A DNA stretch of 64,000 nucleotides from assembly GCA_013416405.1 (NCBI GenBank), contig JACCET010000001.1, positions 124,001 to 188,000 on the forward strand, read 5' to 3'. Each line of letters begins with the position of its first letter. Positions within the stretch are counted from its first letter, which is position 1. This document shows positions 40,600 to 49,180 of this stretch, in pieces. Source of the stretch: Alcaligenaceae bacterium. GTDB lineage: Bacteria > Pseudomonadota > Gammaproteobacteria > Burkholderiales > Burkholderiaceae_B. The notes under the pieces were generated by a model, which was not told where the DNA came from, made no database searches, and worked only from the letters and a program-made list of their open reading frames with translations. The position numbers were made by a program, and so were the translations under genes.

Positions 40600-41220
40600 A
40601 TGAGCACGTCCACGATGCTGCCATCCAAATCGCCAGCAGATCTCGTGGAGCTGGGCCGTATCGTATCGGCCTATGGCGTGCGCGGCTGGGTCAAGGTTCA
40701 GCCCCATGCTTCAAACGGCCAGGTATTGCTTGCGGCAAAAACCTGGTGGCTTAAAGCGCCCGTGCCTAAAGAAGGCTTGGGCGCTTCGTCGTTGGCGGTC
40801 GCAACCCTTGTTGTGGCCAGCCGGCCCCAAGGTTCGACGGTGGTGGCTCAGCTTGAGTCGGTTCCCGATCGCGATAAAGCTGAAGCCATGAAAGGGCATA
40901 CGGTATGGGTGCCGCGTGCCGATTTTCCGCCAGCCGATGATGATGAGTACTATTGGGTAGACCTGATAGGCTGCCGCCTGTTTGGTGAGCACGATGGCAA
41001 TTCCATGCTGATTGGGCAGGTGCTCGATGTCATAGATAACGGCGCGCATGCGGTGTTAAGGGTCGCACGGGCGGAACTGGACTCCGACGGGGAACTGGTC
41101 TTCTTGCAAACCGAGAAGGGCAAATCTCAGGAGGTGTTGGTGCCTTTCGTGGCCGCTCATGTCCACACCGTTGATCTGGCCGCACGGCGCCTGGACAGCA
41201 ATTGGCCAGTGGAACTCTAA
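40600..41220 (+). CDS. rimM: 16S rRNA processing factor RimM
   Basis: A 206-residue 30S maturation factor that binds S19. The N-terminal RimM domain starts [17 protein letters not shown], and the C-terminal PRC-barrel starts near [13 protein letters not shown] and ends [18 protein letters not shown]. It sits 74 bases after rpsP. The start at 40600 has no strong ribosome site; the ATG at 40615 (codon 6) is an alternative. Confidence 0.96.
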
Positions 41221-41231
41221 GAGGCGCAAGC

Positions 41232-41999
41232 ATGCGTTTTGACGTGGTTTCGCTTTTTCCCGATATGTTTTCGGTGGTTCGTGACCTGGGCGTCACCGGG
41301 CGTGCCCACAAGCAGGGGCGATGGTCGCTGGGCTTGTGGAATCCGCGCGACTTCACACACGATGTTCATCGTACGGTGGATGACCGGCCTTACGGCGGAG
41401 GTCCGGGTATGGTGATGTTGGCCGAACCACTTGAGCAGGCGGTACAGGCTGCAAGGGTCGACAGGGCAGATGCTGGTGGCCAGGTGCCGGTCATACTGAT
41501 GAGTCCGGTTGGTCGTCGTTTTGATCAGGCCATGGCGCAAGAGTTAGCGTTGGGGCAAGGCGCGGTGCTGGTCTGCGGGCGTTATGAAGGGGTGGATCAG
41601 CGCTTTGTAGAGCGCTGCGTGACGCACGAGGTTTCTATCGGAGACTTTGTCATGTCGGGTGGCGAGGTTGCGGCGCTGGCGATCATGGACAGTGTATTGC
41701 GGTTGCTGCCCGGTGTGTTGAACGACGCCGAGTCCGCCCGGCAGGATTCGTTCAATGAGGCCTTGACGGGTTTACTTGATAGCCCGCATTACACGCGGCC
41801 CGAACAGTACCATGGCGTGCCTGTGCCGGCTGAGTTGGTGTCTGGCCATCATGCGAATATTGCGGTCTGGCGGCGGCGTCAGTCGCTGGCTTTGACTGCA
41901 CGGCGCCGGCCGGATTTGATAGATGCGGCCAAAGATGCGGGTTTGCTGTCGAAGGCTGACTTGAAGTTCTTAGCGGAGCTTGGGGCGGGCTCTAGCTAG
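41232..41999 (+). CDS. trmD: tRNA (guanine37-N1)-methyltransferase
   Basis: A 255-residue SPOUT methyltransferase making m1G37 in tRNAs. Motifs include [38 protein letters not shown] and the knot region [15 protein letters not shown]. The ATG at 41232 follows GAGGCG; the upstream in-frame codon at 41202 overlaps rimM. The partner gene rplS that normally follows is absent; a palindrome and an autotransporter follow. Confidence 0.97.
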
Positions 42000-42538
42000 G
42001 CTCCTTATCTCGACTCTTCGGGTTTCTATCACGATTTTCTAGACCTTTCTCCAAGGTTTGCTGGGTCTTCCACCAAGGCCTCCCATTACGGCCTCCCAAT
42101 ATTTCTCTGCATAAAAAGCCATATGTATCAGGGGCTGTGCAGGCGCCTCGCGCACGCCGATTTATGCCAGGCTGGCGAGGATGCAAGGTCGCGGCCGTTC
42201 AAGCCCGGCGTTTATGGGCAGCCGGGGGCTGCCCATTCGGGCGCGTTCCGTGACCGCCTCGACTGACTGGCATAAATCGGGAAGCCTTGGCGCCGCCAAG
42301 GCCGTAGCGCGTGAAGCCGGAACAGCCCCTGATACATATGGGTTTCTTAAGCACTGATCTTGACGGGAGGCCGTAATGGGAGGCCTTGGTGGGGTGTGAT
42401 GGTGGGCGCGGCTGCGAACTGTGTCGTGAATGCTAGGTTTCAACGATAAAAATAGCCGTTTCGTCGAAAAATTATTTCGGCGCAGGCTGTTTGGTGCGAA
42501 ACTTTTTGCAAATAACGCGACCCAGACAGGTAGATACA
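42000..42538. other. Intergenic region between trmD and the autotransporter gene
   Basis: This 539-base gap holds the palindrome at 42070-42392. The remainder after it (42393-42538) is more AT-rich (AATTATTTCGG, CTTTTTGCAAATAACG) and must contain the autotransporter promoter, but no clear -35/-10 pair was found. No rplS, tRNA or other gene was recognised. Confidence 0.8.
42070..42392. repeat. 323-bp nested imperfect palindrome of unknown origin
   Basis: Four sets of perfect inverted arms share almost one centre (about 42219-42231): 28 bp (42070-42097 with 42365-42392), 20 bp (42119-42138 with 42322-42341), 14 bp (42157-42170 with 42267-42280), and a central 10-bp hairpin ATGGGCAGCC-GGG-GGCTGCCCAT (42214-42236) extended by GCCCG/CGGGC. 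The segments between arms have diverged. The right half also has a side hairpin GCCTTGGC/GCCAAGGC (42284-42302). The outer arm contains a short direct repeat, GGCCTCCC twice. No convincing ORF or target duplication is seen. It could be a MITE-like element, a structured RNA or a DNA cruciform site. Confidence 0.85.
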
Positions 42539-45500
42539 ATGAAACAAATAACAAGTTCATTCGTAACCGATGGCAAAACCAGGCCCGCTTTTGTATTGAT
42601 ATTGTCACTCGGTGCATCCCTGATACTAACAGCCTATCCAGCCTTGGCAGATACTGTAACCACGCCGCGAAACATAGAGTACTACTCGGCCGATGGTGAG
42701 GATAAAAGTGGCGAGAAGGAGGGGGCGGCGGGCACGACCATAAACTATACCAACGATGACGACTTCGTTATCTCCAACTCGACAACTTCACCTACTGATG
42801 AGGACAGTGTTTACTTCCTTACCACGGTAGGTGGTAGGGGTGTGGATGAGGGCAGCGGTGGCCAGGGTGGTAGCCTGACGTTCCAAAATACGGGTGACAT
42901 GTCGCTTAATGGCGACGGCTCTTATTTCTACAATCACATCATCTATGCGAAGTCGCTCGGCGGCGCGGGCGACAGTGACAACGACAACAACGATTCAAAT
43001 GGTGGGGCTGGCGGCAGCGGAGGGACGGTCAATGTAACAAACTCGGGGACTATCACCCTGAACGGTGCACTCGGTTACATCGGTGCTCCGTTCATTGCGC
43101 TTCGGGCGTCGACCGTTGGTGCCAACGGCGGGAATCAGAACAGCGGTGCTGAAGGCGATCAATCTGGAGGCTCAGGCGGCTCGGGTACCGACGTCACTAT
43201 TACCAATACTCAGGCTATTTCACTAGGCACCTCCACCAGCAATCGTGTCGTGGGCCAGGGGTATGGCGGCGCAATACTGGCTGAGTCGCTTGGCGGCATG
43301 GGCGGGAACGACAATGGGCTTGCCGGCAATTCCAACCGAGTCACCATCAACAATAGCGCACCCGTCAGTCTATATTGGGATGCCGCCTCAAGCGGCGCGA
43401 TCGAAATGTTCGGGATTCGTGGCCTGGCTCAAGGCGGTGATGGCAGCACAACCGACAACGACAACTCTGACCCTGGCGGCAATGGGGGCGGTGGCGGCAT
43501 AGTGACGGTGGGTTCATCGGCCAATGTAACGATGGATATCGTGAACGCCCCAGGCCTTGAGGGCGCCGCCGTGGTGGCCCAGAGCTTCGCTGGCAATGGC
43601 GGCAAGGGGCCGCCCAAGGACAACTCCGGCGGCCTTGGCGGATCGGCATACAACGCAACCATCAACCTTACCGACAACGCCAGCGTGGGCACATCCGGCG
43701 GAACCCTGTACGGGCTATTGGCGCAAAGCGTAGGCGGACAGGGCGGGGACGGAGGGGATGTCGATGCTCTGGCGGGTCAGGCCGGAGGTGGCGGCACGGG
43801 CGGAGCGGGCGGTGTGGTCACGGTAGCCACTGACGCAGGAACAAGGATCAGCACGCAAAACGACTATGCGGCCGGCATTGCCGCCCACTCGCTTGGCGGC
43901 GGCGGCGGCACAGGCGGTGATTTTGTCAGTGTCCTGGGAGGACAGGGCGGCAATGGCGGCAACGGCGGCAACGCGGGTACGGTGACCTTGACCTTGAAGG
44001 GGAGTATCGCAACCATCGGAGACCATGCATATGGCGCACTGGGGCAATCCATTGCTGGCAGCGGTGGCACGGGTGGCGTCGAGACGGGTGGCCTGGTCTC
44101 GCTAGGCGGTGATGGTGCCGGTGGCGGGGCCGCCAATTTGGTAACCGTGACGAACAGTGGCATCATTTCCACGCGGGGCTATAGCTCCCATGGCATTGTG
44201 GCTCATTCGATTGGCGGCGGCGGCGGAGCCGCGGGTTCGGCCTCCGGCTGGCTGAGCATAGGCGGCAGCGCGGAAGGAGACACTGATTCCGCAGGCGGAC
44301 AGGTATCCGTCACCAATTCGGGGCAGATCGCTACGCTGGGCGTAGCCGCAATCGGGATTGTTGCGCAATCCATAGGTGGCGGCGGGGGCACTGGGGGCGA
44401 TGCGACGGGGATTGCCGGCATAGGCGGTACGGGTTCGGGTGGCGGATCAGGATCAGCGGTGAACATACACAGCCTGGGCAGCGTGAAGACCTCGGGCAAT
44501 TATGGGCTAGGCGTGCTGGCTCAATCGGTGGGCGGCGGCGGTGGTAATGGCGGCGATGAGCTGAATTTCTCCGCCGGTATAGCGGTAGGCATCGGTGGTA
44601 GTGCTGATGGCGGTGGCAATGGCGGCGCTGTTTGTCTATCTGATGACGGTAGCTGTGGAGGTGCAGCAACCTCCGCGGCCGAGTCCGTCACCACGTTGGG
44701 CGATCAGGCTATAGGCATATTGGCGCAATCCATCGGTGGTGGTGGTGGCAACGGGGGCGGCGATACCAGTTATGGGGTTGAGGACATCATATCTTTGCAG
44801 GTGGGCGGTACAGCGGGGGCTGGCGGTAGCGCCAGTTCCGTAACCATCAAGCACACAGGATTAGCTGTTACGACCAGCGGTGAACATGCTTCGGGCATAG
44901 TTGCCCAATCTATCGGTGGCGGCGGAGGCAATGGTGGAAACGCATTGTCGAAGAGCGGGGATTTGGGTTTTGCCGCGGCGTATGTATTGGGGGGCAGCGG
45001 CGGTAGTGGTGGCTCGGCAAGCGACGTGACGGTTGCTTTGGACAACAGCCGGATCATCACCGGCTTGCCTCCTCAGGGCGTTGATTCGGCTACGTTTGCA
45101 CCCAATGACGCCATGGGTATCGTGGCGCAGGCGATCGGGGGCGGTGGCGGCAACGGCGGTACGGCTAGCGCCAGTGACCTTATGCTGGCGATGCCGACAG
45201 GCGAAGGGGTGTCGGTCTCATTTAATTTCCAGGCTGCCATGGGTGGCAATGGCGGGTCGGGCCAGAACGCCTGCGGTTCTGGTGATTGCGTCGTCAAAGT
45301 CAGCCTGACAGGCGGCACGTCAGTGACGACATTGGGTGATGGCTCGCATGGCGTGCTGGCGCAAAGCGTGGGCGGTGGCGGCGGTAACGGCGGTGATGCC
45401 TCGGTGTTGTCCACCTCGGTGGGCGACGGAGACTCTGTTCAACTGACGGCCGGCGTTTCGCTGGGCGGACAGGGCGGCAGCGGTACTGACGGCAGCAGCC

Positions 45501-48500
45501 ATGGCGGCGCGGTCAATATCGTTCTAGGCGATACGGGTGTAACGCCCGTTACCGTTCCGCCTATGGCACTGCCTCCCAGCGGCACGCCGCTCGCATCCTC
45601 CGTCGTGACTTATGGAAACTATGCCGACGGCGTTCTGGCGCAATCGGTGGGTGGTGGTGGCGGCAATGGCGGTATGGGCAGCAGTAATGCTTATTCCGTG
45701 GGCGGCGCGGTCAGCATCAAGGCCACACTAGGACTGGGTGGTGCAGGAGGGGGCGGAGGCAGCGGCGACGCGGTGACCGTGACCCAGAATCGTAACCACA
45801 CCGTCCAGACGCTGGGCTCGGGTTCGCGCGGGATTGTGGCGCAGTCCATAGGCGGTGGAGGCGGAGCCTCCCAAGGCGGCACCATGGCGCTAAGTGCTGC
45901 GGTCGAGGGAGAAGGTGCACGTTTAAATGTGGGCGTAGGCATGACAGGGGGTAATGGCGGCAACGGCGGCACGGTCAATGCAAATACCAGCGGCGTGATT
46001 CAGACGCTGGGCGGCGATGCCGACGGCGTGATGGCACAGTCCATAGGCGGTGGCGGTGGTCTGGGCGGTTCAATTGGCGCTGACGCATCTTCTCATCCTA
46101 TTCTGGATCGCATCGGCGCCAGCTCGGACAATCGGGCCAGATTCTCGGATGAAGGCGGTACCTATACCTTTGGCGTGTCGGTAGGAGGCAAGGGTGGCGA
46201 AGGCGGTGTTGGCGGTACCGTCAACCTGTATCACGCCGGAAAAATATCTACTCAAGGCGATTGGGCAGACGGCATTGTGGCGCAATCCATAGGCGGCGGT
46301 GGCGGAGCGGGTGGGTCGGCTTCGGCATCGGGCAGCAAGGTGGCGGCCAATATCGATATTGCGGTAGGCGGCTCGGGTGGTAGCGGTAATGATGGTGGGG
46401 CAATCAACTACATACTCAGCGGTGCTTACGATGGTGCCATCACTACGGCAGGTTATTCGGCCTATGGCGTGTTGATGCAGTCGATAGGCGGCGGCGGCGG
46501 GCAAGGCGGCGATGGCTCCGACCAGGCAGCGGGGACGCTGACGATTGGTGGTTCAGATGGCGGTAGCGGCGGCGCAGGCGGCTCGGGTGGCGTCATCCAG
46601 CCCGGCGCCCCCGGCAACTGGATAACGGCCACCACCACGGGCTCGGAATCGCCAGTGCTCGTGGCCCAGTCCATAGGCGGTGGCGGCGGTGTAGGCGGCG
46701 CAGGCAACAGCAACTCTTCCTCCAAGCCGCTCAGCCACTCGCTCAATCTGTCGGTGGGCGGCCATGGCGGGAGCGCCGGCAATGGCGGCATGGTTGATCT
46801 GGAAACTGGTGCGTACATATCCACATACGGCGATCGCTCATACGGTATGGTTGCCCAGTCCATAGGCGGAGGCGGGGGCCTCGGTGGTGCCGGGACGGCC
46901 GACAACTTTGCCAGTGTGTCGCTCGGGGGGCGTGACAACAGTAGCGGCGATGGCAGCACCGTGACAGTCAACTTGCTGCCAGGCAGCACCGTTTCTACCG
47001 TTGGGAAAGGCGCACACGCGATTATCGCCCAATCTATCGGGGGTGGCGGCGGTATTGCGGGTGATATTTCCTTGCCTTTGACACTGGATCCCGCAGCGTG
47101 GTCCGGCTCGGCCGGAGGCGAAGCAAGCTCTGGCAATGGCCATGATGTGAGCGTCACGACGAATGGTTCGATATCCACGGCAGGTGATTCGGCATTTGGC
47201 ATCATCGCGCAATCCATCAGCGGCGGTGGCGGGTTGGGCGGCGACAGCGTGGCCAGTTTTGCAGGCAGCAATGGTGGGCAAGCCACGCAAGCAGCCGGTA
47301 ACGTTACTGTCAATCAGTTCGGAAAAATCGATGCTTTAGGCGCAGGGTCTACCGGTATTTTCGCGCAAAGCGCGGGCGCCCAAGGATCGGGAGTGGTTAC
47401 TGTCAATGTCAATGGCCAGGTTACAGGCGGAACGGGCGCCGGTGCCTACGCTGTAAGACTTGCTGGCGATAACCAGAATTACTTGAATATTGGTACGTCC
47501 GGCAAGTTGGTTGCTTCGGAAGGAGGAAGCGCTACGCAATATGACGGTCCGAACAGCAATCAGACCCAAAAAGCGCTTGCATCGATCAGCGCCGCCTCAG
47601 GATCGTTGACGGTCAACAATGCCGGCGGAATCTACGGCAACATGGAATGCAGTGGTGCTTCCGGACGGGTGGCTTGCGATGTCAATAACGCTGAAAGCGG
47701 TGTCCTGAGCGACGCCACCCTTTACCAGGCCAATATCAATAATACCGGCCTGGTGGTCATAGGCAAGGCCGGCGCATTCGACACCTTGGCCGTGACGGGT
47801 GACTTCAATTTGCAGTCGGCGGGCCTTCTGCAGGCTGATGTGGATTTCGACCAGCTCAAGTCTCCGCGCATGGTGGTGCATGGTAATACTCGTCTGGATG
47901 GCCAGGTCAATGTCCAGCCATTTACCCTGCTGCCTGATCGCGAGGTAACCGTGGCCACGCTCCATAGCGACATTCAGGGCCTTCCCAATGCCAAGGATAG
48001 CCCGGTGGTTGATTACGACGCCAGGTTGGATGGCAAGCACGTGCGGGTGAGGGCGGCTTCCACCGACTTTGCCGCTGAATCCATGAACCTGGGGTCCAGC
48101 CAACACGCAGTGGCCAGCCATCTGCAGCAAGCCTGGAACCTGGGCGGAAACTCGGCGACCGCTCCTTTGTTCGCTTCGCTGGACATGGGGTCTCGCAGTG
48201 GTGCCGACACCTACTCGGACATGATCTCGGATTTGTCTCCGGGTGTCAGCCTTGCGACTGCTGCCCAGATGCATGCAGGTATGAGTCAGTTTACCGGCAA
48301 CATGATGTCATGTCCGGCGTTCCTTGGTGGCGATACCCTGGCAGGGGAACAGGACTGTCTTTGGGGGCAGGTGACAGGGCGCAACACCAACCAGAGCAGT
48401 CATGACGGCATTTCGGGGCATTCTTTCGAGAGCGTGACCTATCAGTTCGGTGGACAGCGTGAGTTCAAGCCAAATTGGTTTATTGGCGGGTCTGCAGCCT

Positions 48501-49180
48501 ACCAGACTGCCAATCTAAAAGATGACGACAGCCGTGTCAGCGGCGACGGTTCGTTAGGCTACCTTGGTGTAGTGCTCAAGCACCAGGCCGGACCGTGGGT
48601 ATTTTCAGGTGGGATGGGTGCCGGTTATGGAAATTATGACATCGACCGCAGCTTGCGCATTCCGAATCTGCAAAGCACGGCGTCGTCCGACCAGGATGTA
48701 TATAGCATGGCTGCGCGACTGCGGGTCGCACGCACCTTTGCAATGGATAGCTTCTACGTCAAGCCTTATGTTGATCTGGACGCTATCTATACACGTATGC
48801 CGGGCTATACGGAGTCGCGCGGCGACACGCATTTAAACGTACAGGATAGCAACCAATTCGTCGTTGGATTATCACCCATGATCGAAGTGGGTGGGCGCGT
48901 CGAGCTGGACCATGGTGCCGTCATGCGTCCCTTTGCCTACGCGGGGGTGTCCCTCTTGTCTCAGGATAGCTATAAGGTAAAAGCCAGTCTGCAAGGTGCC
49001 CCTGTCGGCACAGACGACTTCGAGACGTCCATGCCCATGGACAATGTTGTTGGCAGACTAGGCTTTGGCTTGCAGGTTTCGAATGTGAAGGGCGTGGACT
49101 TCCGTCTGCAGTACGACGGAGAGTTTTCCAGCCACGCCCAGAGCCATAGCGGGACACTGAAAGTCATGGTGCCTTTTTAA
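42539..49180 (+). CDS. Giant type V autotransporter with Gly-rich repeat passenger
   Basis: A 2213-residue classical autotransporter. An extended signal peptide is cleaved near Ala37-Asp38 (AYPALA|DTV). The passenger (about 38-1900) has some 25 repeats centred on GIVAQSIGGGGGNGG-like cores, 50-90 residues apart, alternating with short beta-strand segments such as VTVTNSGTI, consistent with a beta-helix. Closely spaced Cys pairs occur at 699/706, 912/917, 1704/1713 and 1925/1940. The last about 270 residues form a beta-barrel ending in Phe (MVPF). The ATG at 42539 is preferred over upstream 42491, which precedes the signal peptide. Target and function are unknown; adhesion or biofilm roles are family-based guesses. 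Confidence 0.92.
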   Translation: MKQITSSFVTDGKTRPAFVLILSLGASLILTAYPALADTVTTPRNIEYYSADGEDKSGEKEGAAGTTINYTNDDDFVISNSTTSPTDEDSVYFLTTVGGRGVDEGSGGQGGSLTFQNTGDMSLNGDGSYFYNHIIYAKSLGGAGDSDNDNNDSNGGAGGSGGTVNVTNSGTITLNGALGYIGAPFIALRASTVGANGGNQNSGAEGDQSGGSGGSGTDVTITNTQAISLGTSTSNRVVGQGYGGAILAESLGGMGGNDNGLAGNSNRVTINNSAPVSLYWDAASSGAIEMFGIRGLAQGGDGSTTDNDNSDPGGNGGGGGIVTVGSSANVTMDIVNAPGLEGAAVVAQSFAGNGGKGPPKDNSGGLGGSAYNATINLTDNASVGTSGGTLYGLLAQSVGGQGGDGGDVDALAGQAGGGGTGGAGGVVTVATDAGTRISTQNDYAAGIAAHSLGGGGGTGGDFVSVLGGQGGNGGNGGNAGTVTLTLKGSIATIGDHAYGALGQSIAGSGGTGGVETGGLVSLGGDGAGGGAANLVTVTNSGIISTRGYSSHGIVAHSIGGGGGAAGSASGWLSIGGSAEGDTDSAGGQVSVTNSGQIATLGVAAIGIVAQSIGGGGGTGGDATGIAGIGGTGSGGGSGSAVNIHSLGSVKTSGNYGLGVLAQSVGGGGGNGGDELNFSAGIAVGIGGSADGGGNGGAVCLSDDGSCGGAATSAAESVTTLGDQAIGILAQSIGGGGGNGGGDTSYGVEDIISLQVGGTAGAGGSASSVTIKHTGLAVTTSGEHASGIVAQSIGGGGGNGGNALSKSGDLGFAAAYVLGGSGGSGGSASDVTVALDNSRIITGLPPQGVDSATFAPNDAMGIVAQAIGGGGGNGGTASASDLMLAMPTGEGVSVSFNFQAAMGGNGGSGQNACGSGDCVVKVSLTGGTSVTTLGDGSHGVLAQSVGGGGGNGGDASVLSTSVGDGDSVQLTAGVSLGGQGGSGTDGSSHGGAVNIVLGDTGVTPVTVPPMALPPSGTPLASSVVTYGNYADGVLAQSVGGGGGNGGMGSSNAYSVGGAVSIKATLGLGGAGGGGGSGDAVTVTQNRNHTVQTLGSGSRGIVAQSIGGGGGASQGGTMALSAAVEGEGARLNVGVGMTGGNGGNGGTVNANTSGVIQTLGGDADGVMAQSIGGGGGLGGSIGADASSHPILDRIGASSDNRARFSDEGGTYTFGVSVGGKGGEGGVGGTVNLYHAGKISTQGDWADGIVAQSIGGGGGAGGSASASGSKVAANIDIAVGGSGGSGNDGGAINYILSGAYDGAITTAGYSAYGVLMQSIGGGGGQGGDGSDQAAGTLTIGGSDGGSGGAGGSGGVIQPGAPGNWITATTTGSESPVLVAQSIGGGGGVGGAGNSNSSSKPLSHSLNLSVGGHGGSAGNGGMVDLETGAYISTYGDRSYGMVAQSIGGGGGLGGAGTADNFASVSLGGRDNSSGDGSTVTVNLLPGSTVSTVGKGAHAIIAQSIGGGGGIAGDISLPLTLDPAAWSGSAGGEASSGNGHDVSVTTNGSISTAGDSAFGIIAQSISGGGGLGGDSVASFAGSNGGQATQAAGNVTVNQFGKIDALGAGSTGIFAQSAGAQGSGVVTVNVNGQVTGGTGAGAYAVRLAGDNQNYLNIGTSGKLVASEGGSATQYDGPNSNQTQKALASISAASGSLTVNNAGGIYGNMECSGASGRVACDVNNAESGVLSDATLYQANINNTGLVVIGKAGAFDTLAVTGDFNLQSAGLLQADVDFDQLKSPRMVVHGNTRLDGQVNVQPFTLLPDREVTVATLHSDIQGLPNAKDSPVVDYDARLDGKHVRVRAASTDFAAESMNLGSSQHAVASHLQQAWNLGGNSATAPLFASLDMGSRSGADTYSDMISDLSPGVSLATAAQMHAGMSQFTGNMMSCPAFLGGDTLAGEQDCLWGQVTGRNTNQSSHDGISGHSFESVTYQFGGQREFKPNWFIGGSAAYQTANLKDDDSRVSGDGSLGYLGVVLKHQAGPWVFSGGMGAGYGNYDIDRSLRIPNLQSTASSDQDVYSMAARLRVARTFAMDSFYVKPYVDLDAIYTRMPGYTESRGDTHLNVQDSNQFVVGLSPMIEVGGRVELDHGAVMRPFAYAGVSLLSQDSYKVKASLQGAPVGTDDFETSMPMDNVVGRLGFGLQVSNVKGVDFRLQYDGEFSSHAQSHSGTLKVMVPF

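Follow-up and report, generated by a model that had tools for sequence, protein, structure and literature searches.

REPs are sequences of 20-40 nt, usually present in over 100 copies and linked to a RAYT gene, and REP/BIME sequences affect the ends of mRNAs at the RNA level. The Correia, ERIC, BOX, and RUP repeats measure 100-200 bp, are palindromic and intergenic, and can serve as terminators or as RNase III targets. A literature search by topic and motif among open-licence papers yielded only BRE as a possible near relative of the element studied here, and a description elsewhere is possible. BRE, a Betaproteobacterial repeat element, has been described as a ~90-bp tandem repeat (VNTR) that occurs in Bordetella as well as in other Betaproteobacteria (Hot et al. 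2011, PMC3110155). It is reported at an expressed small RNA locus, and in Bordetella it overlaps the expressed small RNAs bprJ1/bprJ2.

The palindrome analyzed here lies downstream of trmD in the window, the 64,000-nucleotide stretch of DNA from a Pusillimonas-group genome under analysis. The element resembles REP/BIME and REPIN sequences in being palindromic and intergenic, often at gene 3′ ends and in opposite-orientation pairs, but it is 250 nt long (253-nt model, 78 pairs), has a three-way junction, occurs in about 14 copies, and shows no RAYT link. In contrast to Correia, ERIC, BOX, and RUP repeats, to which no sequence relation was noticed, it has no Rfam match: neither the window copy nor its relatives gave a hit to any Rfam 15 family at or above the gathering cut-off. 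No target duplications were noticed either. It shares with bidirectional intrinsic terminators a location between convergent genes and, in Pusillimonas, an A-run and a T-run at the stem base; unlike them, it is ten times larger and branched, with conserved loops, and the U-run is missing in many genera. With BRE it has in common that it is a dispersed, G+C-rich intergenic repeat of Alcaligenaceae and other Betaproteobacteria, the ~90 bp of BRE being close to the length of the element core, whereas the description of BRE has tandem repeats and no three-way junction. The core model had no match in 25 of the 26 family genomes checked, including those of a large genus that we take to be Achromobacter. 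As judged from its description, BRE may or may not be related to the element.

Anatomy and conservation of the fold

A repeat search recovered the inverted arms of the palindrome at 42070-42392, with centres within ~12 nt of each other, in agreement with the original prediction (Table 1). The same structure recurs at 13 further sites of this genome, which puts the palindrome far beyond chance. Folding of the RNA of either strand gave energies well below those of 100 dinucleotide shuffles (-221.3 vs -134.5 kcal/mol, z = -15, for the + strand; z = -17 for the - strand).

Table 1. Positions in the window of the element, its predicted stems and motifs, and the upstream gene (RNA sense on the + strand)
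Feature	Position	Strand	Remarks
trmD, upstream gene	41202..41999	+	normally convergent with valS in the bacterial family
Element as covered by covariance model R1	42109..42361	+	253 nt; R1 match 263.5 bits; 13 further genomic places
Inverted arm pair	42070-42097/42365-42392		28 nt, 100%; repeat search
Inverted arm pair	42115-42153/42307-42345		39 nt, 85%; repeat search
Inverted arm pair	42157-42180/42257-42280		24 nt, 88%; repeat search
Outer stem P0, 5′ side, GGCCTCCC twice	42070..42097	+	28/28 complementary; subfamily of copies only
Outer stem P0, 3′ side, GGGAGGCC twice	42365..42392	+	other copies have short tandem repeats here
Stem P1, 5′ side, 24 pairs	42115..42138	+	two-sided changes in 16/24 pairs, 98.3% paired
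Stem P1, 3′ side	42322..42345	+	consensus structure and pairing statistics
P1b and P2, 5′ side, GGC GCCT CGCGC, invariant internal loop between	42142..42153	+	GGCGCCTYGCGCAMGCCG count
P2 and P1b, 3′ side, GCGCG TGAA GCC	42307..42318	+	consensus structure and pairing statistics
Stem P3, 5′ side, 24 pairs, constant length, highly variable letters	42157..42180	+	two-sided changes in 18/24 pairs
Stem P3, 3′ side	42257..42280	+	consensus structure and pairing statistics
Core: bulge with invariant GCAAG, P4, internal loop, P5, P6	42181..42256	+	alignment of 40 divergent copies
Stem P4	42187-42194/42248-42255	+	within core
Core internal loop TGTTYRAG/CGNGTT	between P4 and P5	+	alignment of 40 divergent copies
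Stem P5	42203-42207/42238-42242	+	within core
Apical hairpin P6, 10-bp	42214-42236 (42214-42223/42227-42236)	+	within core
Side hairpin P7 (third junction arm)	42284..42302	+	two-sided changes in 4/8 pairs, 98.9% paired
TTAAG motif at 3′ end, conserved in many copies	42347..42351	+	alignments; TTTC directly before

A consensus structure was derived from 24 copies of the genus, which were turned to one orientation and aligned. Its layout consists of stem P1, followed by the short stems P1b and P2, split by invariant internal loops, and then by a junction that leads to the arm P3-P4-P5-P6 (42157-42280) and to P7. The extra hairpin that had been noticed on the right side of the palindrome corresponds to P7. 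The spacers between the arms had been described as diverged; their sequences do differ between the two sides, but they are now interpreted as internal loops and one arm of the three-way junction. The outer 28-bp arm with its internal direct repeat is likewise present, although it is restricted to one subfamily of copies and is not a feature of the whole element: at the place of P0 in the alignment, GGCCTCCC/GGGAGGCC was found in only some copies, and other subfamilies have a different sequence there. The core is the part that reaches furthest between genera. At the base of the stem, an A-run (42113-42117) stands opposite the TTTC that precedes TTAAG, and the Pusillimonas copies show at this base a median of 5/6 A and 5/7 T. 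Reading the TGTTYGAG/CGAGTT loop as a kink-turn was discarded, as the order of bases is unfit and by eye only tandem G-A pairing seems possible. In many copies, tandem repeats of ~18-24 bp start at the 3′ end of the element (3′ flanks in L002, L008, L013, and L024); their units are subfamily-specific and include either the TTAAG(C/A)AC motif or sequence complementary to the 5′ flank.

Analysis of the aligned copies revealed that 97.9% of the cells pair in the three-way-junction fold, in comparison with 79.7% in shuffles and 35-42% when the partners were slid by 1-3 columns. Two-sided changes were observed in 48 of the 78 pairs, and compensatory (two-sided) cells amounted to 313, vs 89.5 in shuffles and 24-45 with slid partners; none of 500 shuffles reached any of the observed values. 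The shuffle control is weakened by the relatedness of the copies, but the slid control retains this relatedness and gave the same answer. Stem lengths are constant while their letters change, and the letters of the internal loops are invariant. From these comparisons, the same predicted three-armed fold is shown for every copy, conserved by compensatory change.

With regard to the strand, G-U pairs exceeded A-C mismatches by 71 to 9 on the + strand of the Pusillimonas copies, and for this reason the + strand RNA appears to be the one on which the structure is conserved; recognition of single-stranded DNA from one strand would result in the same bias. The excess is not produced by the choice of columns of the folding program, since the contiguous stem P3 alone gave 17 G-U vs 0 A-C. 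The same excess was observed in 89 copies of other genera, in an alignment fitted to the model. Covariation and G-U asymmetry give strong support to one option of the original prediction, that of a large structured RNA. Under the favoured explanation, the palindrome codes for one member of a multi-copy family of structured RNAs, built from a long closing stem P1/P2, a long arm P3-P6 with its conserved bulge and internal loop, and a side hairpin P7.

Copies, relatives, and evolution of the element

A DNA search of the palindrome's own genome returned most of the element at 14 locations, as well as fragments, so that this genome contains at least 14 copies. GGCGCCTYGCGCAMGCCG was found at 14 places with no mismatch and at none with one mismatch. 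Given these 14 places and the 14 exact occurrences of GGCGCCTYGCGCAMGCCG, the palindrome is a member of a dispersed family and not a one-off. The covariance model R1 detected the element in 71 of 268 family genomes and in 24 of 43 genera; copy numbers are lower bounds, as scoring was limited to seven candidates in each genome. Among named genomes, a pattern scan assigned the element to Pusillimonas, Pigmentiphaga, Parapusillimonas, Pollutimonas, Allopusillimonas, Paralcaligenes, and further Alcaligenaceae.

Shorter related cores were found with the core model R2 in other Burkholderiales, with an unchanged layout: CTGTTTGAG...GCGAGTT in the long arm and a side arm with a GGGAA-hairpin. With a third model, R3, hits were obtained in 71 of 250 genomes from the order and in 40 of 321 sampled from the class, about 0.3 being expected by chance; R3 derives from an unstructured alignment, has a poor stored structure, and is to be taken as a sequence-weighted model. 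Related elements occur in Burkholderiales at large and in further orders of the class, the homology of the Alcaligenaceae and wider forms resting on shared motifs and layout. An exact match to the core pattern in Bosea lathyri (Alphaproteobacteria; L161:7652-7680) had no covariance-model match and was not counted, being either due to chance or a distant relative. Searches of plasmids and phages gave no match to the element, and the core pattern was not found in viral contigs.

Several copies adjoin the same genes in at least two species, a few of them in different genera (dapF region, livF region). Such shared loci speak for the age of the element, which, on this comparative evidence, is old and widespread. 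Paralogues within a genome can be closer to each other than orthologues; L020 and L021, two different loci in genome G003, differ by only 5% in P3. The nearest relative in another genome was the orthologue 7 of 12 times for stem P1 and 2 of 12 times for arm P3, from which the inner arm has evidently been exchanged or converted between loci and homogenised within the genome, while the outer stem stays with its locus. This combination of outer stems tied to the locus and an inner arm homogenised within the genome is an unusual evolutionary pattern. Two copies (L025:1497-1643 and L045:979-1109) have lost most or all of P3, which is retained by an orthologous copy in another species.

Position relative to genes and the trmD locus

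Gene neighbours were called by a simple codon-position rule around 102 distinct loci. The 3′ side of the RNA faced the 3′ end of a gene 94 times and a gene 5′ end 28 times, and the opposing stop codon was usually less than 200 bp from the element. Copies separated by 600 bp or less were arranged head-to-head in 41 cases, tail-to-tail in none, and in tandem in 4; these values became about 36, 0, and 2, respectively, once loci represented twice had been discarded. Across the wider order, pairs counted without duplicates comprised 24 head-to-head, 0 tail-to-tail, and 3 tandem arrangements, and all the close pairs that could be picked out of the class-wide list were head-to-head. The copies are located mostly at gene 3′ ends and as head-to-head pairs. 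Spacers between close inverted copies range from 34 to 316 bp, whereas BRE copies are described as tandem with 0 to few nt between them (PMC3110155). Comparison of the pair spacers revealed no common sequence and no conserved promoter, and spacers as short as 34-60 bp could hardly accommodate two promoters. Given the lack of shared sequence and lengths down to 34 bp, it is unlikely that a conserved promoter acts in both directions.

The element had been thought to sit where rplS would be expected, which turned out to be wrong. Downstream of trmD, this gene converges on valS in most of the 20 genomes followed, and rplS adjoins it in only one (L225). In the genome of the window, rplS is located at G000:C11:101090-101431, ~64 kb upstream of trmD. 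Replacement of rplS by the element was rejected on account of both the trmD-valS arrangement in most of the family and this distant position of rplS.

A pair of elements is present at trmD in G003, and a single copy in G055, which belongs to another genus. Within one genus, the trmD-valS junction contains the element in G003 and lacks it in G001. Such empty sites were among the expectations to be checked in relatives, and their flanks are too diverged to display a target duplication. Other species have a gap of 0-256 bp after trmD, which in G031 and G004 contains bidirectional terminators of the ordinary kind. The window copy is single and has the direction of trmD, as does the next gene; the trmD-adjacent copy in G003 is inverted relative to it. 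These differing junctions indicate that gain and loss at the genus level, as well as rearrangement at this junction, have happened. Where valS stands in related genomes, the window encodes at 42506-49180 a 2224-aa glycine-rich autotransporter-like protein, for which no Pfam match was found.

Possible roles of the element

We tentatively favour, at somewhat less than even confidence, a role as a 3′-end structure that would end or cap read-through transcripts and insulate neighbouring genes. The reasons are the position of the copies, the terminator-like base in Pusillimonas, and the presence of the element at a place where other species keep terminators. The RNA would arise as the terminal part of transcripts that read through from the upstream gene, and its rigid, nearly double-stranded structure would stop or cap the transcript just before the opposing gene and protect its 3′ end. 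In Pusillimonas, the A-run/T-run bidirectional terminator at the stem base could add to the stop. Where two elements stand head-to-head, the one adjoining either gene would serve the opposite gene. Against this model, 250 nt and a three-way junction far exceed the needs of a terminator, and the window copy is single, is inverted in comparison with the G003 copy, and is followed by a gene in the trmD direction. A good U-run at the 3′ end is present only in Pusillimonas and close relatives; as many other genera do not have it, intrinsic termination cannot be the general function. Termination by itself does not account for the size, the invariant loops, and the missing U-run elsewhere. The loops point to a bound protein or to tertiary folding, and a protein is predicted as a likely partner of the element.

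The original prediction also offered a MITE or IS remnant, and we consider it rather unlikely that the copies are MITE-like, non-autonomous mobile DNA whose one-strand hairpin is recognised by an unknown enzyme, with pairs and loop motifs as recognition sites. Many dispersed copies, subfamilies with their own flanks, empty sites, the presence or absence of the element at the orthologous trmD-valS junction of a single genus, and near-identical copies that bracket low-GC DNA in other families would fit such mobility, and a hairpin formed by single-stranded DNA would likewise tolerate G-T, on just one of the strands. On the other hand, many copies are at the same locus across species, some across genera, and they are old and strongly diverged, yet paired. 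No transposase family was linked to the element in a genome-wide search that covered Y1_Tnp, and no transposase adjoins the copies, which in their own genome are intergenic repeats that contain no transposase gene. No element was found near Y1 genes, and Y1_Tnp was detected in 4 of 20 genomes, most element-rich ones lacking it. The single-copy Y1 (RAYT-type) transposase gene of the genome (G000:C33:395489-395812; L208:1174-1866) is flanked by perfect TGGGGTCAGACACGATTA palindromes (L208:1124-1178, 2267-2316, and 2729-2778), unrelated to the element; it is a REP-RAYT system of its own. This transposase was rejected as a partner in view of its own palindromes, the lack of any element nearby, and the absence of Y1_Tnp from most element-rich genera.

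It seems to us unlikely that the copies form a family of small RNAs that act in trans or bind a protein, for instance a ProQ/FinO- or RNase III-type partner, and have transcripts of their own. The invariant internal loops and the single shape in many copies would suit such RNAs, as would, should that repeat be related, the overlap of the ~90-bp Bordetella repeat with the expressed bprJ1/bprJ2 (PMC3110155). However, the paired copies have no conserved promoter or spacer between them, the only promoter-like site near the window copy is weak and at chance level, and a role in cis agrees better with the strong preference for the 3′ ends of genes. It is very improbable that the palindrome acts only as DNA (a cruciform, nucleoid, or replication landmark) and has no function as RNA. 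Perfect long inverted repeats at dispersed single sites would agree with this, but neither the 71:9 ratio of G-U to A-C nor the asymmetric conserved loops are expected from it, and P3 letters vary freely while pairing is kept. The cruciform of the original prediction is not needed, since it gives neither a strand-specific G-U excess nor invariant internal-loop letters. A decayed or chance one-off palindrome is hardly credible any longer, having been refuted by the 14 copies in the genome and the covariation across genera. If transcribed, the element would be an abundant, deeply conserved RNA fold of Betaproteobacteria and other Gammaproteobacteria (in the GTDB sense), with many copies per genome and absent from Rfam, and would provide a large natural experiment on how bacteria separate the transcripts of neighbouring genes.

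In other families, most pairs are short-spaced and composed of two different subtypes (identity 0.53-0.79). Eight long-spaced head-to-head pairs (L242, L243, L244, L245, L247, L260, L261, and L262) have spacers of 674-1157 bp and copy identities of 0.70-0.98. Mean copy identity was 0.84 for long-spaced vs 0.64 for short-spaced pairs (Mann-Whitney P = 7e-5 over 36 pairs, not all of them independent). All eight long spacers were 10-18 GC points below their surroundings, and no such difference was observed in 23 short spacers. It is conceivable, albeit quite doubtful, that the elements mark both termini of a mobile gene-cassette system operating through structured RNA or ssDNA, in which short pairs of different subtypes would be at rest and head-to-head pairs of the same subtype would bracket foreign low-GC DNA, mostly with one orphan gene. 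In a simpler reading, near-identical close inverted copies are unstable and survive only with something between them, although this does not explain the low GC. With long pairs that enclose foreign genes, a new cassette system could be put to the test. A small orphan ORF was found in six of the eight long spacers, and one long-spacer ORF matches DUF6988 and the candidate defence family PDC-S52.
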